From: an uncultured Marinicella sp.
GTDB taxonomy: Bacteria > Pseudomonadota > Gammaproteobacteria > Xanthomonadales > Marinicellaceae
DNA length: 64,000 bases
Direction of reading: 5' to 3'
NCBI GenBank assembly: GCA_947502595.1
Contig: CANNAM010000006.1
Location: 62,001-126,000 of the forward strand
Part shown: in pieces, positions 41,530-62,001 of the stretch
How positions within the stretch are numbered: position 1 is the stretch's first letter
How the letters are laid out: every line of letters begins with the position of its first letter
Notes under the pieces: generated by a model
What the model was told of the DNA's origin: nothing
The model's input: only the letters and a program-made list of their open reading frames with translations
The model's database searches: none
Position numbers and translations under genes: made by a program

Positions 41530-42969
41530 TTAAACCTGCGTGCCACCAACTGTTAACTTATCAATTTTTAAGCTGGGCTGACCAATGCCTACGGGGATAC
41601 TCTGGCCATCTTTGCCACACACGCCCAAGCCTTGATCAAAGGCCAAATCATTACCCACCATGCTGACTTTTTGCATCGCAGCCGGGCCATCACCAATCAA
41701 AGTAGCACCTTTGACTGGGTGCGTAATTTTACCGTTTTCAATCATATAAGCTTCGGATGCTGAAAATACAAATTTACCGTTGGTGATGTCAACTTGGCCA
41801 CCGCTGAAGTTAACTGCATAAAGACCTTTTTCTACTGACTCAATGATTTCTTTGGGGTCGTGCTCACCGGCCATCATGTAGGTATTGGTCATGCGCGGCA
41901 TGGGCAAATGGGCAAACGACTCTCGCCGCCCATTTCCAGTGGTTGGCACGCCCATCAAGCGGGCATTGAGCTTATCTTGCATGTAGCCACGCAGGATGCC
42001 ATTTTCAATCAGGATATTTTCTTGAGAAGGTGTGCCTTCATCATCAATATTCAAGGAGCCGCGGCGGTTGGGCAAAATGCCACTGTCAATAATGGTACAG
42101 GCTTTTGAAGTAACTTGTTGCCCCACTTTACCTGCAAAAGCCGATGAACCTTTGCGGTTAAAATCGCCTTCAAGACCATGACCCACTGCCTCATGTAATA
42201 ACACACCAGGCCAACCACCAGCCAACACCACCGGCATTTCGCCTGCTGGCGCTGCTTTGGCTTGTAAATTAATTAAGGCACCATGGATGGCTTGGTCGAT
42301 GAATGCATCGGCATAACCCGCATTGAACACATCAGTCAACAAAATACGACCACCACCACCGGCGTAGCCCATTTCCATGCGACCCTTGTCATCGGCACAA
42401 ATCACTTGGATGCTGAGTTTGACCATCGGTCTGATGTCAGCGGCAAACACCCCATCAGTAGCCGCCACCATGATTTCTTCTTGTGATGAAACCAAAGAAC
42501 AAATTACTTTTTGTACACGGTGGTCTTGTTGTCGAGCTTTGACATCCATTTCATTCAATAGTTGAATGATGGAAGCGTTGTCCACCCCCAATAAAACATC
42601 TTGTGGCGTATACAGCTCAGGCACGGCATTGGTGCGCAAATTCACGCCTTGATGAGTGGCTTGGCTGCGGGCAATACTGCGCGCTGTTTGAACCGCTTCA
42701 CTGATGCTGTTTTTATTCAATGCGTCGGTGTAAGCAAATCCAGTTTTTTCGCCTTGGTTGATGCGTACACCAACCCCTCGGTCAATGCTGTGACTGCCAG
42801 ATTTGACCTGTTGGTTTTCGAGTACCCATGATTCTAGACGTGAGGACTGGAAATATAAATCGGCGAAATCACCACCTGTAGACAAAGCATCTCCCAGCAG
42901 GTTTTCAAGGTCTGTAACACTTAAACCACCGGGTTCAAGAAAGGTTTTACTGGTTTGTTTGATTGACAT
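41530..42969 (-). CDS. tldD: Metalloprotease TldD
   Basis: 479 residues. TldD with TldE forms a heterodimeric protease that digests unfolded peptides; it matures microcin B17 and works with CcdA/LetD in E. coli. The zinc motif HEAVGH (HExxxH) lies in VLLHEAVGHGLEGDFNRKG. SLNIDDEGTP and FAHLPMPRMTNTYM are family blocks. tldE is not in the window. It is the last gene of the maf-rng-yhdP block, as in E. coli, and overlaps the pqiA-like gene by 23 bp. Confidence 0.95.
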   Translation of the reverse strand: MSIKQTSKTFLEPGGLSVTDLENLLGDALSTGGDFADLYFQSSRLESWVLENQQVKSGSHSIDRGVGVRINQGEKTGFAYTDALNKNSISEAVQTARSIARSQATHQGVNLRTNAVPELYTPQDVLLGVDNASIIQLLNEMDVKARQQDHRVQKVICSLVSSQEEIMVAATDGVFAADIRPMVKLSIQVICADDKGRMEMGYAGGGGRILLTDVFNAGYADAFIDQAIHGALINLQAKAAPAGEMPVVLAGGWPGVLLHEAVGHGLEGDFNRKGSSAFAGKVGQQVTSKACTIIDSGILPNRRGSLNIDDEGTPSQENILIENGILRGYMQDKLNARLMGVPTTGNGRRESFAHLPMPRMTNTYMMAGEHDPKEIIESVEKGLYAVNFSGGQVDITNGKFVFSASEAYMIENGKITHPVKGATLIGDGPAAMQKVSMVGNDLAFDQGLGVCGKDGQSIPVGIGQPSLKIDKLTVGGTQV

Positions 42970-50775: not shown

Positions 50776-52893
50776 ATGACTTTACCCATCACCAAAACAC
50801 CGCTCTTGAACCAAGGCGAGGTCAACAGCAAACGCGCTGAAATCAAAGCACACTTCATCAGCACCTATGCTGCTTATGAAAACTTATTTACTTGTTTAAA
50901 GCATGATGACGCTTATTTTCACAAAGCCGAACCTCTGCGCCATCCTTTGATTTTTTATTTTGCCCACACTGCGGTTTTTTTTGTTAACAAACTCAGGGTG
51001 GCTAAGATCATTGATCACAATGTTGATGATGCTATCGAGTCCATGATGGCCATCGGCGTTGATGAGATGTCGTGGGACGATTTGAATGACGCCAATTATG
51101 CTTGGCCGTCGGTGGCGGCAGTACAAAACTACCGCAAGCAAGTCAAAGCTTTGGTCTTAGACTTGATTGACCGCTTGGATTTGCAACTACCGATTCAATG
51201 GCAAGACCCCTTTTGGGTCATCCTGATGGGCATCGAACATGAACGCATACACTTGGAGACATCCAGTGTTATCATCAGACAAATGCCAATAAAGTGGGTA
51301 CAAAACCAACCCTTATGGCCCAGACACCAAGTTGATCACCCGGTGCCAAACAACCAACTGTTGCACGTGGATGGCGGCACTGTGAAACAAGGCAGAAGCA
51401 CACCCAGTGAGACGTACGGCTGGGACAATGAATATGGCCAACAAAGCACCACAGTGGCAGCATTCAAGGCCAGTCAATTTCTGGTTTCGAATCATGAATT
51501 CTTAGAATTTGTAGAAGACGGAGGCTACCAAGACAAACAGTGGTGGAGCGATGAAGGCTGGCAGTGGCGTAAATTCAAACAAGCAGAACACCCTGTCTTT
51601 TGGTCTAAAAATGAGCAACAACAATGGCAGTACCGCAGTATGACTGAGGTGTTTAACATGCCTTGGAGCTGGCCAGTTGACGTCAATTTTTTAGAAGCCA
51701 AGGCTTTTTGTAATTGGCTGGCAGCCCGCACCGGTCGAGCCATTCGCTTACCAACCGAAGCCGAGTGGTGCCGCTTATACGAACAATGCATTGATGTACA
51801 CTACCCTCACTGGGACAAAGCCCCTGCCAATATAGAGTTGAACTATGCTGCATCAGCAGTGCCCGTGGACCAGTTTATTTTTGGTGCAGCCCAATTTGGC
51901 GATGTCATCGGCAATGTTTGGCAATGGACAGAAACCGCCATCGATGGTTTTGATGGCTTTCAAGTTCACCCAGTATATGATGACTTTTCAGTGCCTACTT
52001 TTGATGGTCAACACAACTTAATCAAGGGCGGCAGCTGGATCAGCACTGGCAACGAAGCCCATAAAGATGCCAGGTACGCCTTTCGCAGGCACTTTTTTCA
52101 ACACGCAGGATTTAGATACGTCGAATCGGAGCAAACAGTGGACCAAACCTTTAACACCTATGAAACAGATGAACTCATATCGCAGTACCTGGAATTCCAT
52201 TACGGTGATGAATACTTTGGTGTGCCTAATTTTCCCACAGCATGTATTGATGCTTTGATTCCGCATGTGAATACAACCAAAATGTCTCGGGCATTGGATT
52301 TAGGTTGTGCGGTGGGTCGCAGCAGTTTTGAATTGGCCAGGTATTATCAGCACGTCGATGCACTGGATTTTTCAACCCGTTTCATCCGCAACGCCATTAA
52401 CTTAGTCGAGCATGGCAAAGTTAAATACATGGTACCCACGGAAGGCGAGTTGACTGAGCTGAAAACCTTCAAATTATCGGCATTGGATTTGGGTGATAAA
52501 GTTCACAACGTCAAATTTTCCCAAGGAGATGCCTGTAACCTAAAAGGCAAATACAAGAACTATGACTTGATTTTTGCTGGTAATTTAATTGACCGTCTGT
52601 ACCAGCCTAAACAGTTTTTGGACAGCATAAAACTGCGCATTAACAAAGGCGGCTATTTGGTGCTAACCTCACCCTATACCTGGCTCGAAGAATTCACCGA
52701 CAAAGCCAACTGGTTGGGCGGCATCAAAGTCAATGGAGAGAACATCACCACCCTAGACGCTTTAAAAGCCCACTTAAAATCAGATTTTGAGTTGGTAGGA
52801 TCGCCACAAGACATCCCTTTTGTGATTCGTGAAACCGCCAGAAAGCACCAACACACTGTGGCACAACTAACCATTTGGAAAAAAATCAGTTGA
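50776..52893 (+). CDS. ovoA: Ovothiol synthase OvoA (5-histidylcysteine sulfoxide synthase with methyltransferase)
   Basis: 705 residues, full OvoA length. The N-terminal DinB-like domain carries the iron-binding HX3HXE motif (IEHERIHLE). The middle formylglycine-generating-enzyme-like domain has RLPTEAEWCRLYEQ, IGNVWQWTETAIDGFDGF and IKGGSWISTGNEAHKDARYAFRRHF. The C-terminal SAM methyltransferase has ALDLGCAVGRSSFELAR and YDLIFAGNLIDRL. OvoA joins cysteine to histidine C5 with oxygen, giving a sulfoxide, and methylates the final thiol-imidazole at the pi nitrogen. The next gene is a PLP enzyme suited to the lyase step. Confidence 0.94.
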   Translation: MTLPITKTPLLNQGEVNSKRAEIKAHFISTYAAYENLFTCLKHDDAYFHKAEPLRHPLIFYFAHTAVFFVNKLRVAKIIDHNVDDAIESMMAIGVDEMSWDDLNDANYAWPSVAAVQNYRKQVKALVLDLIDRLDLQLPIQWQDPFWVILMGIEHERIHLETSSVIIRQMPIKWVQNQPLWPRHQVDHPVPNNQLLHVDGGTVKQGRSTPSETYGWDNEYGQQSTTVAAFKASQFLVSNHEFLEFVEDGGYQDKQWWSDEGWQWRKFKQAEHPVFWSKNEQQQWQYRSMTEVFNMPWSWPVDVNFLEAKAFCNWLAARTGRAIRLPTEAEWCRLYEQCIDVHYPHWDKAPANIELNYAASAVPVDQFIFGAAQFGDVIGNVWQWTETAIDGFDGFQVHPVYDDFSVPTFDGQHNLIKGGSWISTGNEAHKDARYAFRRHFFQHAGFRYVESEQTVDQTFNTYETDELISQYLEFHYGDEYFGVPNFPTACIDALIPHVNTTKMSRALDLGCAVGRSSFELARYYQHVDALDFSTRFIRNAINLVEHGKVKYMVPTEGELTELKTFKLSALDLGDKVHNVKFSQGDACNLKGKYKNYDLIFAGNLIDRLYQPKQFLDSIKLRINKGGYLVLTSPYTWLEEFTDKANWLGGIKVNGENITTLDALKAHLKSDFELVGSPQDIPFVIRETARKHQHTVAQLTIWKKIS

Positions 52894-52936
52894 ACTTTAG
52901 ACTGACTGATTGGACACCCTGCTAGGCGGCTTATTT

Positions 52937-54049
52937 ATGATGCAATTTAAACCTTTTAAAATGGCTGCCTACAGTCAACAAGCCAACTGCAGTACAGCGA
53001 TTAACTTGCACAGCAGTAATCCAGAGCCTTTCAGTTGGTCCGAACTGGCTGCACTGACGCAGCTGGACTTAGGTCAAATCATCACCCAAAGTTCCTTTAA
53101 CTATGAATCTACCCAAGGCAACGTTGCACTGCGGGAACAGCTGGCACAACAACTCTACCCATCCACTTCAGCAGCCAATCTGGTGTTAACCTCTGGTGCC
53201 CAAGAAGGCATATTCTTAGTCATCAACAGCTTGATTCAGGCGGGCGACGAAGTGGTGACTTTCAGCCCTTGCTTTGAACCCCTGGTCTCAGTGGCCCAGG
53301 CTGCTGGCGCTCAGGTCAGCAGCATCCCATTGAACCCACAGGATAATTGGTCAATACCTTGGGCTACATTGGAGGCCAGCATCACCGCCAAAACCAAACT
53401 GTTGATCATTAATTTCCCGCACAACCCCACTGGATGCTCTATTCAAGCAACTGAATTGACTCGACTGATCGCATGCTGTGAAAAACATGGGGTGTGGTTG
53501 TTTTCAGACGAGGTGTTCAGGGGGCTGGAACATGACAAACAAGACACCTTAGCTGCTGTCGTGGAACAGTATAAAAGGGGTATTTCTATGGGCGTGATGT
53601 CCAAATCCATGGCCTTGCCTGGTATCAGAGTCGGCTGGTTGGTATGCCGCGACCAAAATTTACTGCAACAGTGGCTGACCATTAAATCTCATTTATCGAT
53701 TTGTCAAAGCAGTACAGATGCCCAATTAACCACAGCCCTGATACCATTCACTCATGCCATCCTGCAACGCAATACCAACATCATCAATACCAACAAAACC
53801 CTGCTTAACCACATGTTGGATGGTCACCCAAACTTTAAATTCAGCCTACCAACTGGATCAGCCACCGCATTCATTGAACTGAAATACCAAACAGGTGAAG
53901 CATTTTATTTACAGACGCTGCAAGAAAAGCAGCTGTTTGTGATGCCCAATCCAGCCTTTATGACCGCTGTCAATGGATTCAGATTGACCTTAGGCAAACG
54001 TCAGGCGGAACAACATTATCAAACAATTTTTCGCTTTGATACTGTTTGA
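52937..54049 (+). CDS. ovoB: PLP-dependent class I/II aminotransferase-fold enzyme, probable OvoB sulfoxide lyase
   Basis: 370 residues. PLP-fold marks: TSGAQEGIFLVINSL, INFPHNPTGCSI, LFSDEVFRGLE, and the PLP lysine in MSKSMALPGIRVGWLVC (about residue 224). The ATG at 52937 has GGCGG upstream; the open frame from TTG 52910 is less likely. By fold alone it could be an aminotransferase. It starts 43 bp after ovoA in the same direction. OvoB, the lyase that cuts the histidylcysteine sulfoxide to 5-thiohistidine, belongs to this fold, so I infer OvoB from context. Confidence 0.72.
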   Translation: MMQFKPFKMAAYSQQANCSTAINLHSSNPEPFSWSELAALTQLDLGQIITQSSFNYESTQGNVALREQLAQQLYPSTSAANLVLTSGAQEGIFLVINSLIQAGDEVVTFSPCFEPLVSVAQAAGAQVSSIPLNPQDNWSIPWATLEASITAKTKLLIINFPHNPTGCSIQATELTRLIACCEKHGVWLFSDEVFRGLEHDKQDTLAAVVEQYKRGISMGVMSKSMALPGIRVGWLVCRDQNLLQQWLTIKSHLSICQSSTDAQLTTALIPFTHAILQRNTNIINTNKTLLNHMLDGHPNFKFSLPTGSATAFIELKYQTGEAFYLQTLQEKQLFVMPNPAFMTAVNGFRLTLGKRQAEQHYQTIFRFDTV

Positions 54050-55908: not shown

Positions 55909-56073
55909 TTACTCTTCGTCATCATCACCAGGCAAATGCGAACATTTCAAATCAAGGTTAATCTGATTGATTTGTTTAAGCTCAGTGTCGGTTAATTTTT
56001 CAGTGATTTCATTGTTTTGATGAACCGAATCTGATTGACCTATTGACTCAAGTACTTTAATTATATTATTCAT
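55909..56073 (-). CDS. Candidate borosin-type RiPP precursor peptide 3
   Basis: 54 residues from an ATG at 56073, 5 nt after AGAGG. It shares with peptides 1 and 2 the leader pattern K-x-LE-x-IGQ-x-x-SVHQ and a tail DLKCSHLPGDDDEE. The middle KLTDTELKQINQ recalls the leader helix of known split-borosin precursors (from memory). The tail would be the core, with Cys, hydrophobic residues and Pro before the acidic end. This is the most divergent of the three. It has its own promoter and precedes the GGDEF copy 3 gene. Confidence 0.7.
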   Translation of the reverse strand: MNNIIKVLESIGQSDSVHQNNEITEKLTDTELKQINQINLDLKCSHLPGDDDEE

Positions 56074-56108: not shown

Positions 56109-56157
56109 CACCTGACTGCTCAGGTGTACTTATATTCTAACATTATCTGTCAGTCAA
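56109..56157 (-). promoter_or_regulatory. Promoter and palindrome upstream of precursor 3
   Basis: On the minus strand TTGACT (56157-56152), a 17-bp spacer and TATAAG (56134-56129) make a good sigma70 promoter. Just downstream, covering the expected start, is a perfect 7-bp palindrome CACCTGA-GCAG-TCAGGTG (56126-56109), which could be an operator or a leader hairpin. Confidence 0.6.
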
Positions 56158-56234: not shown

Positions 56235-56780
56235 TCAGCAGGGTATCTGCCGTGTTACCATCCATTCTTGCATCGAATCCCCTGTTGTTTTATGTTTAAA
56301 CACACGTCCTTTTATAAGTCCCAGTTTATGATTGGCTTGTATGGCAGCTTGGTTAGACACTCGATTAAATACATGTACTGTAGTTACAGCTTGACTGCTT
56401 AAAAGGTAATTAATTAATAAAGTTTTTGCTTGGTGTCCAATTCCTTTTCGATGCCATTCTGGTAGTACCATAACCCCCACTTCGGCAACACTTCTGGATT
56501 GCTTCAGGTACCAATTAGCCCCTATGATTCCGACTTGAGCACGACTGGCCAGATCAACTATTACATAACTTATATATTTAGGCAGTACCTGCTGTTGTGT
56601 ATACAGGGTTCGTTTGAAATACTGAGTTGCGCTGTCTAAGCTCATTGCATCACCAATGTGTTGCATGACTCTTGGGCATCCATACAAGGAAAAAAACACA
56701 TCAAAGTCATCATCACCTAATAGTTTTAACGCTATTGAAGAAGTGGGTGAGTTAGTTCGTATGTACGTTTTGACCGTCAA
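56235..56780 (-). CDS. GNAT-family N-acetyltransferase (RimJ/RimL-like)
   Basis: 181 residues. IALKLLGDDDFDVFFSLYGC, VGVMVLPEWHRKGIGHQAKT (acetyl-CoA loop R-x-x-G-I-G) and NQAAIQANHKLGL place it in Acetyltransf_3/RimJ-RimL. The only sensible start is TTG at 56780; no ATG precedes the conserved part and no ribosome-binding site is clear. It lies between GGDEF copy 2 and precursor 3 in the same direction. It could acetylate a peptide or antibiotic. A tailoring role for the peptides is speculation. Confidence 0.75.
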   Translation of the reverse strand: MTVKTYIRTNSPTSSIALKLLGDDDFDVFFSLYGCPRVMQHIGDAMSLDSATQYFKRTLYTQQQVLPKYISYVIVDLASRAQVGIIGANWYLKQSRSVAEVGVMVLPEWHRKGIGHQAKTLLINYLLSSQAVTTVHVFNRVSNQAAIQANHKLGLIKGRVFKHKTTGDSMQEWMVTRQIPC

Positions 56781-56984: not shown

Positions 56985-58820
56985 TTAAGGCACAGCTGGG
57001 TTGTATATCACCACTTGGTTGCGGCCTTGTTTTTTGGCTTGAAACAAGGCCACATCGGCATGGGTCAGTAACATATTTAAACTGTAACCAGAGCAGTTTG
57101 CAGATGACACCCCAAAACTGGCGGTAACAACAATGTCTGTGCCGGAGCTTGAACTGTCCAATGTTTCGACAGCCAATCTTAACGCTTCTACCTTGTTGTA
57201 CATTTCGTTGAAGTTTAAGCCCGGCATCACAATGCAAAACTCTTCACCACCTAACCTGGCTATAATGGTTTCACCTTCAATCAGCTCCTTACACGCATAC
57301 ACCACATTTTTTAACACCCAGTCACCAACCAAGTGGCCATGGTTGTCATTCACCCTTTTAAACCGATCTAAATCCATGATTGCTAAATGTATAGGCGCTT
57401 CTATTGATGCCATGCGTTTAATCAGCGCATTGGCCTGCTCTTCAAAAGCTTTGCGAGTCAATACTTTGGTTAAATGGTCTATTTCAGAAACACCTTTAAA
57501 GTAGTCATGACGTTTTTTAACTTTATACAACCACAACACCATCAGTCCCAATAAAGTGAGTATCAACATGATAACCAGCCGTTGGTTATTGGCCAATTGT
57601 TCGGTTAATTGCTTTTCTAGTTCCAGCACTGCTTTTTGCTGATTGAGCTGATCGATTTCAAACTCTTTGGCTAAATTTGAATGCTTAACCGTCATGAAGG
57701 CCATTTGTTTGGCTTTGGACTGACCATATAAATTCAATTCAACTCGATTTCTCTGACTCAAGTACTGGTAGGCGGCCAAGTACTTGTTCTCAGACAGTGC
57801 GACTTGTTCCAGCACCTCCAGTGCAAAAATTAACTGTAAGGTGTTACCCAACCCCTCATTCAAATCCAGGGTAGCTTTGGCAAACCCTTCTGCAGCATTG
57901 ATGTTTCCTTGTAATAAAGCAAATTTAGCTTCAATAGCAGCAAACTTTGCTTGAATGTTCTTGTATGGACCAACACTGATTTCAGGGCGCAAACCAACAA
58001 TCAGTTCACTCAACTCATTCAGTTTTGTTGGAGACAGGTTTTCGGTTTTTAACTTTCTATAGATGCTGTCCATCAAAAGCGATTGGGCGAACAACAAATT
58101 GCCACTGTCTATACAAGCATTGTCTGAGTAGTCGACTTCATTAACAGGTACATCTGATGAGCTGTCATGTAAATAAAAATGGTTTTTACTGAATTGTAAA
58201 CGGCATTTATTTTCTGTGGTTGGCTGCAGGTTGTATAAAATTTCACTGTATTTAATACTGAGTTGTTTTTGCCCCAAAATGTTATATACCATGGCTGCAG
58301 CCGAATAAGCGATTATTTTGGTGGTGGTGTCTGTGGTTTCTTTAAGTTCATTGATGGTGGTATCGATGTACAGTGATGCATCATTGTAGTCACCCCTGAG
58401 GGCAGCTAAATTAGCCAACAGGGCATCCATCCTAACAATATTTTTGATGTCTTTACACCTTGCCTTCAATTGTTTTGCATCATCAATGGCTGTTTGATAA
58501 TCCCCTTTAAAAGCCGTTTGATAGGCTTTTAAAAAACCGTAATGGCAACTTTGAAAAGCAGTCATACCATCTGCTACCAAGGCCAGGTTCTCTAAACCTT
58601 TTGCAAATCCGTCATGATCTGAGATTCGAATGGCTTCCAGCCTTAACATTTCTTGGTTAATTGACTCAGGATCGGTCAATTCATTTTGAGCTGAATGAGC
58701 CAGTCCAACGGTAAAAACAACACACAAGCAAAAGACGATTAAGCACAGTGCACCTGGTTGCTGACGAAAATAGTAGGGTAAATTATATTGGCTTAGCGGG
58801 TTATTCTTCGTCATCGTCAT
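56985..58820 (-). CDS. Exported TPR-transmembrane-GGDEF diguanylate cyclase, copy 2
   Basis: 611 residues. An N-terminal hydrophobic signal/anchor (LCLIVFCLCVVFTVGLAHSA), TPR-like helical repeats, a coiled coil (EIDQLNQQKAVLELEKQL), a membrane helix (RLVIMLILTLLGLMVLWLY) and a GGDEF domain from about 440 with MDLDRFKRVNDNHGH and GGEEF. No RxxD I-site. The ATG at 58820 lies inside the end of the precursor 2 gene in another frame, so the two overlap by 20 bp and are translationally coupled; ATG 58814 is an alternative. Very similar to copy 1 in the linker and GGDEF region. Confidence 0.9.
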   Translation of the reverse strand: MTMTKNNPLSQYNLPYYFRQQPGALCLIVFCLCVVFTVGLAHSAQNELTDPESINQEMLRLEAIRISDHDGFAKGLENLALVADGMTAFQSCHYGFLKAYQTAFKGDYQTAIDDAKQLKARCKDIKNIVRMDALLANLAALRGDYNDASLYIDTTINELKETTDTTTKIIAYSAAAMVYNILGQKQLSIKYSEILYNLQPTTENKCRLQFSKNHFYLHDSSSDVPVNEVDYSDNACIDSGNLLFAQSLLMDSIYRKLKTENLSPTKLNELSELIVGLRPEISVGPYKNIQAKFAAIEAKFALLQGNINAAEGFAKATLDLNEGLGNTLQLIFALEVLEQVALSENKYLAAYQYLSQRNRVELNLYGQSKAKQMAFMTVKHSNLAKEFEIDQLNQQKAVLELEKQLTEQLANNQRLVIMLILTLLGLMVLWLYKVKKRHDYFKGVSEIDHLTKVLTRKAFEEQANALIKRMASIEAPIHLAIMDLDRFKRVNDNHGHLVGDWVLKNVVYACKELIEGETIIARLGGEEFCIVMPGLNFNEMYNKVEALRLAVETLDSSSSGTDIVVTASFGVSSANCSGYSLNMLLTHADVALFQAKKQGRNQVVIYNPAVP

Positions 58821-58977
58821 CAGGGAGAATCATACAAACCAAGTCATGGTTTTGCGCTTTCAGCTGAATAAATGCGTGGTTTTGAGTCACTGAATCTGTG
58901 TACAATTGATCATTAGAATGTTGATGTACCGATTGAGTTTGACCCAATCGTTCTAAAATTTTTACTTTATTTTTCAT
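58801..58977 (-). CDS. Candidate borosin-type RiPP precursor peptide 2
   Basis: 58 residues from ATG 58977, with AGGGAA upstream. Starts MKNKVKILERLGQTQSVHQ and ends DLVCMILPDDDDEE. Same length as peptide 1, with closely similar ends and a variable middle. It begins 60 bp after the stop of the methyltransferase gene, the arrangement seen for split borosins, so it is the most likely substrate. The hydrophobic VCMIL before Pro and the acidic run would be the methylated core. Confidence 0.75.
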   Translation of the reverse strand: MKNKVKILERLGQTQSVHQHSNDQLYTDSVTQNHAFIQLKAQNHDLVCMILPDDDDEE

Positions 58978-59037
58978 TGTACAGTTTTCCCTATTTGATT
59001 GACGTTTACTGGTAATGCTTGCTTTGGTTAAAAAATC

Positions 59038-59829
59038 TTAACATAAATCCTTGATTTTCAACAATCTATTTACCTGCTCAGTGTTTTTTTGTTTTTTATG
59101 CTGAGGCGGTATGACCAAAGTGCTCTTCATTAACAAGGGCACAGAAGTTAAATTTTGCAACTCAACGGTCTCCATTCTGGGCTTTTCAATCGGCAGTACC
59201 GCACATTCATAAACAATCACTTCATGGTCTGGAGAATACGTCTCTAACAGCATATCCACCAACACTTGTTTGGCTTCAATTGAGGTATCAAATACTTTCA
59301 AGCTGCGGTCCCCTGCAATGCCCACCTGCCACAATACCAAATAAGCACTGGGATCAAACTTCGTATGATTGAACATGAAATTATTGGCTTCAAAATGGGC
59401 ACAACCACAGCTACCAGGATCAATACCTAAGTCTGCATACAAACAATCTTCCGCTGAAATCCCAGGCTCCATATGTGCTTGATAGCCTTCGGCTCTGGCC
59501 ATGCGAATGGTTTCGTGCGGTGGCAAAGCAAAAACCCCGGGATGACCATAGAAAGCACCGCAAACATTGTTGCCTGCCCTGACCGCTTGCATAATCATAT
59601 CCCCCATTTCACGGTAAGTTGTTTTTCTGGACTTACCCGCTTCATACAAAGGCTGTAAACTGATGACATGTTCGTTCATGGTTTTCACCCACTCTTCCAC
59701 CAGTTGATTCGAAGCTGCCACAAACACCACATCAGCTTGTTCAATAAAATGACGTGACAGTGGCGTGATGTGAGACCCCAAAGTCATCCCCAAACCTACA
59801 TTTACTAAGCGCCCTTTTTTAGTTGACAT
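59038..59829 (-). CDS. Split-borosin-type peptide alpha-N-methyltransferase
   Basis: 263 residues of the tetrapyrrole (corrin/porphyrin) methylase fold, SAM-dependent. The N-terminus RLVNVGLGMTLGSHITPLSR lacks the cobalamin-pathway GPG pattern. LYEAGKSRKTTYREM gives Tyr62, Arg68 and Tyr72, with the same spacing as the catalytic Tyr/Arg/Tyr set of the borosin enzyme OphMA. FYGHPGVF (93-100), MEPGISAEDCLYADLGIDPG and YLVLWQVGIAGD match the bacterial split-borosin enzyme SonM as I remember it. Such enzymes methylate backbone amides of a separate precursor. GAGGAG lies before the ATG. No corrin or heme gene is near; two small peptide genes flank it. Confidence 0.85.
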   Translation of the reverse strand: MSTKKGRLVNVGLGMTLGSHITPLSRHFIEQADVVFVAASNQLVEEWVKTMNEHVISLQPLYEAGKSRKTTYREMGDMIMQAVRAGNNVCGAFYGHPGVFALPPHETIRMARAEGYQAHMEPGISAEDCLYADLGIDPGSCGCAHFEANNFMFNHTKFDPSAYLVLWQVGIAGDRSLKVFDTSIEAKQVLVDMLLETYSPDHEVIVYECAVLPIEKPRMETVELQNLTSVPLLMKSTLVIPPQHKKQKNTEQVNRLLKIKDLC

Positions 59830-60004
59830 ACTTGCTCCTCACTGTTGTTAATTAAAGGTGTTTCACTGATTGTTGGTAAATCAACTAACCAATACCGGAC
59901 GAACTCAAAGCTGAATATGCAGCATCCCAAAAACTGAACACCTTAATCACCACTTGAGCTATGGCCTTGCTTTGCTCAGCTACAGTTGCTGCTTTTTTTC
60001 ATCT

Positions 60005-61828
60005 TTAAGCCACCACAGGGGTATTAATCACCACCTGATTACGACCCTGGTTTTTGGCTTCAAACAAAGCCGCATCTGCGTGGGTTAATAATAAATTAAA
60101 ACTGTACCCTGAATTGGTGGATGATGACACACCAAAACTGGCAGTCACTGATATGTCTGCACCTGAAACAGAACAATCTAAATGCTCAACAGCATGCCTT
60201 AAAGCCTCCACTTTGGCATACATTTGATTGAAACTCATATCCGGCATAACCACACAAAACTCTTCTCCTCCTAATCTGGCTATGATCATGTCTTCCTCTA
60301 CCAACTCCTTACAGGCATAAACCACGTTTTTCAGCACCCAATCACCAGTCAAATGCCCATGATTATCGTTCACCTTCTTAAAGTAATCCAAATCCATAAT
60401 CGCCAAATGTATGGGTGCTTCATTTGACTGCATGCGATTAATCAGCTCTATGGATTGCTCTTCAAACGCTTTGCGGGTTAAAACCTTGGTCAAATGATCC
60501 ACTTCAGACACACCCTTGAAATAATCATGACGCTGTTTGATTTTATACAACCACATTGCCATCAAGCCCAAAAGCGTTAGTATCAATAGAATAACCAGAC
60601 TTTGGTTGTTGGCCACTTGCTCAGTTAATTTTTTCTCTAGCTCAAGCACTGCTTTTTGTTGGTTGAGCTGTTCTATTTCAAACCCTTTTGCCAAGTTGGT
60701 GTGCTTGACTGTCATGAAAGCCAGTTGCTTGGCTTGAGACTGGTCATATAAACTCAATTCAACTTGGTTTTTTTTATTCAGATATTCAAATGCTTGGGTG
60801 TAATTGTTTTCGGATAGCGCCACATTTTCCAGCACATCAAGCGCAATAATTGATTGCTCAGTATTGCCAAGCTTTACATTAACATCCAATGAATTTAAGG
60901 CATATTGACGGGCCTTCTGCGCTTCACCTTTGAGCCAATATAGTTTGGCTTTTAATGCAGCAAAAATACCAAGTATATTTTTATAAGGGCTTTGACTAAT
61001 CTCGCCTTCTACACTGCTGATGGTTGTTTCAATTTCATCCAGCGCTTGTTTTTTGCTGCCGCTCTGAGTTAACTGCCATTTGATATGGTCTAAAATAAGA
61101 AACTGGCTGTACAGTAAGTTGCCACTTTTTCTGCATAATTCTGACATGTCCTTTATTTCAGAAAACGTCACTGGTTGACTGCCAACCTCATCCTGATACA
61201 CATTGCTGATGAAGCTTAAATGACAGAGGTTTTCATCGGTTGGACTGAGGTTGTATAAAAGTTTACTGTATTTTGCACCTAACGCTTGTTGGTCAAGTAG
61301 GTTATAAACAACTGAGGCCGCAGAGTACACCAATGTTTTGGTTACTGTATCATCTGTTTTATTGGCATTTTGAATGACCAGGTCTATATGTTTAGAGGCC
61401 TTATCATAGTTGCCACCAATCACTGCTATATTCGCAATCAACGCATTCATTCTGATTTTCACCCGGGTGTCATCGCACCTGGGCATCAAATTTTCAATGA
61501 TTTCGACGGCTGTTTTTGACTCGCCTTTAAAAGCCTGTTGATAAGCCAGTAAAAATGAATAATGACAGTGTTGGTATGTCGACATCTCAATTTGTTTGAA
61601 CTTTAGTTTTTCCAAACCTGAATCAAACATAAGTGGCGATTTAATTCTTAATGATTCCAACCTCAGTATTTCATCAGTAATTTCTTCAGCTTCACTGACA
61701 TCCGCAACAACAGACTTACCCGCTGCAGGCACCACCAGCAAACATAAAAAGAGCATGATAAAAACACATGCTCTTGTATAGATGTCAAACAACATGACTT
61801 TTAAATCAGAACTCAGGACATCAGTCAC
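60005..61828 (-). CDS. Exported TPR-transmembrane-GGDEF diguanylate cyclase, copy 1
   Basis: 607 residues from a GTG at 61828 that overlaps the precursor 1 stop (GTGA); ATG 61795 is an alternative opening the signal segment (CVFIMLFLCLLVVPAAG). TPR-like helices (about 45-370), coiled coil (EIEQLNQQKAVLELEKKL), membrane helix (LVILLILTLLGLMAMWLY), and GGDEF with MDLDYFKKVNDNHGH and GGEEF. No RxxD I-site. The linker and GGDEF are nearly the same as in copy 2, while the TPR part has diverged, as expected if the sensor domains recognise different ligands. Confidence 0.9.
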   Translation of the reverse strand: MTDVLSSDLKVMLFDIYTRACVFIMLFLCLLVVPAAGKSVVADVSEAEEITDEILRLESLRIKSPLMFDSGLEKLKFKQIEMSTYQHCHYSFLLAYQQAFKGESKTAVEIIENLMPRCDDTRVKIRMNALIANIAVIGGNYDKASKHIDLVIQNANKTDDTVTKTLVYSAASVVYNLLDQQALGAKYSKLLYNLSPTDENLCHLSFISNVYQDEVGSQPVTFSEIKDMSELCRKSGNLLYSQFLILDHIKWQLTQSGSKKQALDEIETTISSVEGEISQSPYKNILGIFAALKAKLYWLKGEAQKARQYALNSLDVNVKLGNTEQSIIALDVLENVALSENNYTQAFEYLNKKNQVELSLYDQSQAKQLAFMTVKHTNLAKGFEIEQLNQQKAVLELEKKLTEQVANNQSLVILLILTLLGLMAMWLYKIKQRHDYFKGVSEVDHLTKVLTRKAFEEQSIELINRMQSNEAPIHLAIMDLDYFKKVNDNHGHLTGDWVLKNVVYACKELVEEDMIIARLGGEEFCVVMPDMSFNQMYAKVEALRHAVEHLDCSVSGADISVTASFGVSSSTNSGYSFNLLLTHADAALFEAKNQGRNQVVINTPVVA

Positions 61829-62001
61829 TCATCATCGTCATTAGGAAACAACACACAAACCAAATCACCACTCTGGATTTTCAATTGACTGAAAGCCTGG
61901 TCGTCTTTATGCAGTGTTTCTATCATCTGGTTCACTGAGTCATATTGATGAATTGATTTGGTTTGGCCGATTTTTTCTAACATTTTTATTTTATTATTCA
62001 C
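61825..62001 (-). CDS. Candidate borosin-type RiPP precursor peptide 1
   Basis: 58 residues from a GTG at 62001, 7 nt after AGAGGAAA. Starts VNNKIKMLEKIGQTKSIHQ and ends DLVCVLFPNDDDE. The stop overlaps the start of GGDEF copy 1. The open frame runs further upstream, but the ribosome-binding site and alignment with peptides 2 and 3 fix this start. Putative core VCVLFP before the acidic tail. Confidence 0.73.
   Translation of the reverse strand: MNNKIKMLEKIGQTKSIHQYDSVNQMIETLHKDDQAFSQLKIQSGDLVCVLFPNDDDE

Follow-up and report, generated by a model that had tools for sequence, protein, structure and literature searches.

The closest described relative of the locus reported here is the SonM/SonA system of Shewanella oneidensis, a type IV split borosin in which the methyltransferase is likewise a separate protein of 263 amino acid residues with a short precursor encoded next to it (PMC8429565). 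The present locus lies in a stretch of 64,000 nucleotides, called the window below, from an uncultured Marinicella sp. (GenBank assembly GCA_947502595.1, contig CANNAM010000006.1, positions 62,001 to 126,000 of the forward strand). It contains one methyltransferase (MT), three precursor peptides (P1-P3) and three diguanylate cyclases with an exported tetratricopeptide repeat (TPR) domain (D1-D3). MT is 50% identical to SonM with the same active-site residues, and P1-P3 appear to belong to the family of SonA. We propose a type IV split-borosin locus in which a single methyltransferase would act in trans on three precursors, each of them read by its own protein composed of an exported TPR domain, a membrane segment and a GGDEF domain. 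The probability of this reading is estimated at roughly 0.55.

The gene cluster itself is of a known type. A locus whose methyltransferase is 93% identical to SonM (L144; L and G numbers are our handles for loci and genomes) carries a SonA-like precursor and a TPR-GGDEF gene at a spacing of 0 nucleotides (nt), and the order methyltransferase, precursor, TPR-cyclase is common to both. However, the Marinicella locus has three precursor-cyclase cassettes for one methyltransferase. Its precursors are shorter than SonA by roughly the last helix or helices of the borosin-binding domain and have an invariant cysteine in the core, and their cores end in an acidic tail, while that of SonA ends in SHGNGD. 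The initial annotation knew of no described borosin locus with diguanylate cyclases. This claim did not hold, because L144 has the same TPR-GGDEF gene and the legend to Figure 1 of Xu et al. 2024, after Imani et al. 2022, places GGDEF among the borosin architectures (PMC11395268). With this legend and L144 the borosin-GGDEF association is already on record, and novelty by way of the cyclases was rejected. The multi-cassette arrangement appears to be new.

A TPR domain fused to GGDEF is also present in RcbB of Vibrio vulnificus, where it represses the cyclase and the genetically linked RcbA relieves the repression (PMC12282931). The D proteins share with RcbB both the fusion and the presence of a genetically linked partner. 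However, the partner of RcbB is another TPR protein, and neither a borosin precursor nor a methyltransferase belongs to that system. The RRNPP receptors (Rap, NprR, PlcR) are cytoplasmic TPR proteins of Gram-positive bacteria, which read a ribosomal peptide encoded next door. The likeness to the present locus is that of a TPR domain reading a neighbouring peptide signal; the outputs differ from those of D1-D3. Moreover, the TPR domains of D1-D3 are predicted from hydropathy to be exported, with a signal-like segment before and a transmembrane (TM) segment after them, and do not correspond to the cytoplasmic RRNPP receptors. The peptide of the Marinicella locus is probably backbone-methylated, unlike the RRNPP signals.

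Methyltransferase and precursor peptides

MT is almost certainly a borosin α-N-methyltransferase, as judged by sequence comparison. In a phmmer search of the sequences of the PDB, SonM (7ltc) came first with an E-value of 4.8e-69 and the fungal borosin enzymes followed at 1e-52 to 3e-44 (dbOphM 1e-52), while the corrin and siroheme enzymes were found near E 1 (0.96 for uroporphyrinogen-III methylase 1ve2). The identity to SonM is 49.8% over 243 aligned residues, and the pairwise alignment places Tyr58, Arg67, Tyr71 and Tyr93 of SonM at Tyr62, Arg68, Tyr72 and Tyr94 of MT. Mutation of these four residues of SonM lowers or alters catalysis (PMC8429565). The features by which the initial annotation had recognized the enzyme, Tyr62, Arg68, Tyr72, FYGHPGVF and MEPGISAEDCLYADLGIDPG, were all found, and its assignment to the split type with separate short precursors is borne out. 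The chain of MT ends after the methylase domain, with no fused clasp or core. The fold comparison of the MT model was assessed by Z and coverage, the rmsd (root mean square deviation) of atoms being large from domain shifts and therefore set aside; Z was about 22 to SonM and about 13 for the siroheme/SUMT enzymes.

It is necessary to consider MT as a tetrapyrrole methylase of the cobalamin or siroheme pathway, with the peptides as unrelated small open reading frames (ORFs). MT does have the fold of the TP-methylase family (Pfam 4e-18). However, the strong PDB matches are all borosin enzymes, the fold score is far lower for the precorrin and uroporphyrinogen enzymes, the equivalents of the four SonM residues are retained and the precursor partner is conserved across dozens of genomes. 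The NCBIfam precorrin models also stay far below their cut-off for MT. A tetrapyrrole identity is extremely improbable and was rejected on sequence, PDB matches and fold score. The clustering with cobalamin or siroheme methylases that the initial annotation had named as the adverse outcome did not occur. Its statement that no corrin or heme genes lie nearby is correct for the annotated neighbours, which make up part of the window.

The closest relatives of MT are found in M. meishanensis and M. litoralis. A tree of 40 methyltransferases places MT in a well supported gammaproteobacterial group, 22 of whose 23 rows adjoin a TPR-GGDEF gene. SonM pairs with a Colwellia sequence just outside this group.

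Two peptides of 58 residues, one of them starting 60 bp past the stop codon of MT, had been proposed as precursors, and both P1 and P2 are real. The third peptide, P3, lies with D3 outside the region then considered, and these two genes and the GNAT gene between the cassettes had gone unnoticed. The family (A1) comprises 23 short sequences, found in Marinicella and elsewhere in its family, with Met1, Leu8, Ser16 and Cys48 invariant and Glu9, Gly12, Gln19, Pro52 and Asp54 nearly so. A profile made from relatives together with the window's own three peptides finds it in 25 of 61 related genomes and in three copies in the genome of the window, which is more than chance. P3 matches the family with an E-value of 1.7e-40 and is similar to P1 at 3e-8.

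A direct search of the PDB with the short A1 peptides gave no match to SonA. The connection is made by longer precursors (A4), which accompany related methyltransferases, for example in Lysobacter, Dyella, Rheinheimera and Colwellia. A1 aligns with A4 with an hhalign probability of 97.3 (E 2.4e-11), and the A4 profile matches SonA (E 9e-5) over residues 6-59, the borosin-binding domain, which in type IV split borosins has five helices. Relative to A4, about 11 residues ahead of the core, from the later helices of this domain, are missing in the Marinicella peptides. On these alignments P1-P3 are probably shortened precursors of the SonA family, and they are very probably the substrates of MT. 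The putative core is a short hydrophobic strip ahead of the acidic tail, LVCMILP in P1, LVCVLFP in P2 and LKCSHLP in P3. A Colwellia ORF located 43 nt past a borosin methyltransferase (L019, 3533-3973) contains near-identical repeats (NHKAFFVANDGQEFTMSAEVE) and is a possible multi-core precursor.

TPR proteins beside borosin methyltransferases

In D1-D3 a signal-like N-terminus precedes the TPR domain, and a TM segment separates the latter from a GGDEF domain. In D1, hydropathy places the signal-like segment at residues 18-46 and the TM segment at 411-436. The TPR parts of D1 and D2 are 49% identical. P3 and D3 were modelled by AlphaFold as a single chain, read in frame through the stop codon with the stop taken as Gly. 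The model, with a mean confidence score (pLDDT) of 87, shows the TPR part as a superhelix, followed by a long membrane-crossing helix and a domain of GGDEF fold. The GGEEF, DxD, FK, ND, GH and GD columns are invariant across 28 D proteins, which thus keep all catalytic positions of GGEEF cyclases and are predicted to be active diguanylate cyclases. The RxxD motif upstream of GGEEF (the I-site of product inhibition) is absent from the three proteins of the window and from other Marinicella D proteins, and is present in several from Lysobacter and Rheinheimera.

Two cysteines of the exported TPR part, Cys206 and Cys236 in D1 numbering, are invariant in 27-28 cyclase-type proteins from Marinicella through the SonM-type locus. 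The pair is present in proteins with a TPR domain only and absent from the kinase class, and it looks like a structural disulfide. Pairing of the core cysteine with these residues was considered and is unsupported: the SonA-type core has no cysteine although the pair persists in its TPR partner, and in the kinase class the pair is missing.

The partnership was assessed in three sets of genomes. Among the 61 related genomes, 36 have both the methyltransferase and a D-type TPR gene, 2 the enzyme alone, 3 the D gene alone and 20 neither (Fisher p 6e-11). In a random sample of the class (369 genomes), a borosin methyltransferase occurs in 10 genomes and a D-type TPR region in 4, in 3 of these within 2 kb of the methyltransferase. 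The order of Colwellia and Shewanella contains 108 borosin methyltransferase loci in 71 of 296 genomes, and a TPR gene is adjacent at 103 of the 108, that is, at 93 by a listed TPR match within 4 kb and at 10 with weaker neighbours by inspection (L173, L175, L178-L185). Of the other five loci, two run into a contig edge, a third retains only a GGDEF remnant and the last two are without a TPR gene.

The output domain in these partners is variable while the TPR domain is constant: GGDEF, HisKA-HATPase with or without receiver and Hpt domains, or none. The constant element beside borosin methyltransferases is the TPR domain. The cyclase as essential partner is ruled out by the TPR-only and TPR-kinase partners, and the earlier reading, centred on cyclases, was incomplete in missing the exported TPR domain. 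A literature search that left aside the main borosin mining papers found no paper pairing borosin with tetratricopeptide; the TPR rule may already have been described.

In L168, L169, L170, L156 and L162 the methyltransferase is accompanied by 1-4 copies of an exported TPR-only protein, about 350-375 residues long and without an output domain; such partners occur in several small genomes. The TPR neighbour is larger in L164-L167, L171-L173, L175, L178-L182, L185, L023 and L035; those scanned have a histidine kinase in place of GGDEF, in some cases together with receiver and Hpt domains. In the cyanobacterial loci L025, L027, L029, L032, L034, L036 and L037 the methyltransferase is followed by a TPR protein of about 290-330 residues, with no precursor identified.

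The tandem TPR-only copies would fit a different function, in which the TPR domain is a periplasmic carrier, chaperone or trap of the modified peptide, for export, immunity or display, and signalling is secondary. TPR domains are also classical peptide binders, acidic C-termini included. However, most partners are fused to signalling enzyme domains with intact active sites, and a carrier function of this kind appears improbable.

In Marinicella, peptide and cyclase have been duplicated together, as a cassette. Among the closest genomes, a precursor stands directly upstream of 40 of 49 TPR-cyclase genes, mostly within 60 nt. The nine others include two with a likely over-extended ORF start, three at contig ends and four truly alone. 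Several precursor-cyclase units are distant from the methyltransferase (G005, G014, G016). A solitary TPR-GGDEF gene of the D family occurs in the Marinicella-like genome G011 (L117, 1907-3715), with neither methyltransferase nor precursor.

The distances between precursors correlate with those between TPR domains (r 0.72; 32 units, 21 genomes). Among all 3072 arrangements that an exchange of partners inside the genomes allows, the real pairing ranked first, and second with the core region alone. The correlation of precursor with TPR, given GGDEF, is 0.53, and that of precursor with GGDEF, given TPR, is 0.13. The TPR part is simply more variable, and the co-variation supports a specific pair without proving it.

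These data also bear on a second alternative, in which the borosin serves as an effector natural product, such as a metallophore or a compound that inhibits competitors. The TPR-cyclase or TPR-kinase would then be a sensor that controls only its production or an accompanying behaviour, and the peptide would not be the ligand of this sensor. Biosynthetic clusters commonly come with sensors and two-component systems, and the output domain of the partner, where there is any, is always regulatory. A GNAT is repeatedly linked, as with a tailored product: it adjoins the methyltransferase in L002, L007, L008, L010 and L149 and is near both methyltransferases of L019. However, a regulator of production would need no copy for each peptide, whereas here every extra precursor has its own TPR-cyclase, one methyltransferase serves three cassettes, and the precursor diverges in step with the receptor. 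In addition, TPR-only partners cannot regulate alone, and neither an exporter nor further tailoring genes were found in the window. We consider an effector product unlikely, though less so than a mere carrier.

Possible role of the modified peptide

The reading that we prefer, with one methyltransferase and a receptor for each peptide, suggests the following mechanism. The N-terminal helices of the precursor would dock on the enzyme like the borosin-binding domain of SonA, and the backbone amides of the hydrophobic strip would become methylated. The modified peptide would then reach, either intact or after cleavage, the extracytoplasmic TPR superhelix of the cognate D protein and alter the output of the cyclase, so that local cyclic di-GMP (c-di-GMP) would report the presence of the peptide. 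The methylation sites, the route of export and processing, the binding of peptide to TPR domain and the sign of regulation are inferred. We give an even chance to the peptide being a ligand of the TPR protein next to it, or a modulator, because every peptide has a putative receptor of its own while the enzyme is shared, because the TPR domain is kept across differing outputs, and because RcbB/RcbA offers a precedent in which TPR repression of GGDEF is lifted by a linked partner (PMC12282931).

Several observations weigh against this reading. The enzyme is cytoplasmic and the TPR domain exported, but the precursors have no signal peptide and the operon contains no exporter. In the P3-D3 model P3 is not placed on the TPR domain (pLDDT mostly 33-63). 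The co-folding proposed in the initial annotation, run for MT and P1 as the same kind of read-through chain, gave a well folded enzyme and left P1 unplaced at a pLDDT of about 50-65. Adjacent genes co-inherit by linkage alone, and this is no proof of contact. The leader co-varies more closely with the TPR domain (0.72) than does the core (0.37), and complete D genes without a precursor exist (the third of G006, that of G011, and the second of G013 and of G016). The top-match statistic of the TPR profile (A7) is partly circular: 39 of its top 40 matches adjoin a methyltransferase, but its 27 rows come from methyltransferase-adjacent genes, 13 of them from the order then searched. The tests in the class and in the relatives used a single protein of the window as the query and are free of this circularity.

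Processing of the peptide was considered in the light of a pepsin-family aspartic peptidase, which is found in 15 of the 61 relatives, in some beside the locus. Shewasin-like peptidase genes are part of the borosin operon in L149-L152, L160 and L161, where the order is peptidase, GNAT, methyltransferase, precursor and TPR-cyclase, and are near the locus in G005, G014, G016, G030 and G056. Shewasin A reportedly processes a borosin precursor, and the presence of peptidase genes in or near borosin operons is consistent with this. The genome of the window itself gave 0 matches with PF00026 and with a two-row profile of the relatives, a further point against the proposed mechanism.

Organization of the locus and its meaning

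The genes of the locus are on one strand in the order P2-D2-MT-P1-D1-GNAT-P3-D3 (Table 1). Ribosome-binding sites (RBS) support the starts of MT, P1, P2 and P3. For P2 the start is a GTG, at the place where its homologues also begin, and for P3 it is an inner ATG at 56073 preceded by AAGAGGTG, a good RBS. D1 overlaps the P1 gene by 20 bp and D2 overlaps P2 by 4 bp, while D3 is at 0 nt from P3. This spacing suggests that the precursors and the D genes are translationally coupled.

Table 1. Features of the Marinicella locus, in positions of the window
Feature	Position	Strand	Remarks
P2, predicted precursor peptide, 58 residues (GTG start)	61825..62001	minus	putative core DLVCVLFP, then NDDDE; RBS AGAGGAAAG
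D2, TPR-TM-GGDEF, putative partner of P2	60005..61828	minus	Pfam GGDEF 1.3e-35, TPR_12 5e-5
MT, predicted split-borosin α-N-methyltransferase (SonM family), 263 residues	59038..59829	minus	RBS GAGGAG
P1, predicted precursor peptide, 58 residues	58801..58977	minus	putative hydrophobic core DLVCMILP, then DDDDEE
D1, exported TPR domain-TM-GGDEF, predicted diguanylate cyclase, putative partner of P1	56985..58820	minus	Pfam GGDEF 5e-34
GNAT acetyltransferase, probable accessory gene	56235..56780	minus	Acetyltransf_3 2.6e-15
P3, predicted precursor peptide, 54 residues	55909..56073 (stop included)	minus	putative core DLKCSHLP, then GDDDEE
D3, TPR-TM-GGDEF, putative partner of P3	54079..55908	minus	Pfam GGDEF 9e-37, TPR_12 1.6e-5

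Scans for promoters and terminators gave sites no more numerous than in shuffled sequences, and a search with a library of defence systems gave zero matches. A perfect 7-bp inverted repeat, CACCTGA-CTGC-TCAGGTG, is located at 56109-56126 between the GNAT gene and P3, just upstream of P3. It has one other match in the window, with two mismatches, and is a candidate terminator or operator. An OvoA gene (5-histidylcysteine sulfoxide synthase and methyltransferase, NCBIfam equivalog domains) adjoins a gene of the pyridoxal phosphate (PLP) aminotransferase fold at 50776-54049, and the two probably form an ovothiol pair next to the borosin operon. A gene of the PLP aminotransferase fold and a neighbour of similar size flank the borosin operon also in L002, L003 and L006. 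A TldD/PmbA-type metallopeptidase is encoded at 41530-42969 among housekeeping genes (RNase G, YhdP, Maf), with no link to the borosin locus shown; TldD proteins take part in the maturation of some ribosomally synthesized, modified peptides elsewhere.

As of 2021 none of the split-borosin pathways had been linked to the natural product in which it ends (PMC8429565). The reading of the TPR domain as receptor would, if true, offer a role for these widespread peptides. Tentatively, and with odds somewhat below even, the split borosins as a class may be extracytoplasmic, backbone-methylated ribosomal signals with dedicated exported TPR receptors and interchangeable outputs (c-di-GMP, phosphorelay or a soluble binding protein), the cassettes sharing one methyltransferase. 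If the constant partner proves to be an exported TPR receptor whose output is a second messenger or a phosphorelay, the role of the peptide is directly testable in common laboratory strains, for example Shewanella oneidensis. If true, this would be, to our knowledge, the first backbone-N-methylated ribosomal peptide signal in Gram-negative bacteria, and a large group of TPR-cyclases and TPR-kinases, at present orphans, would gain a first class of ligands.

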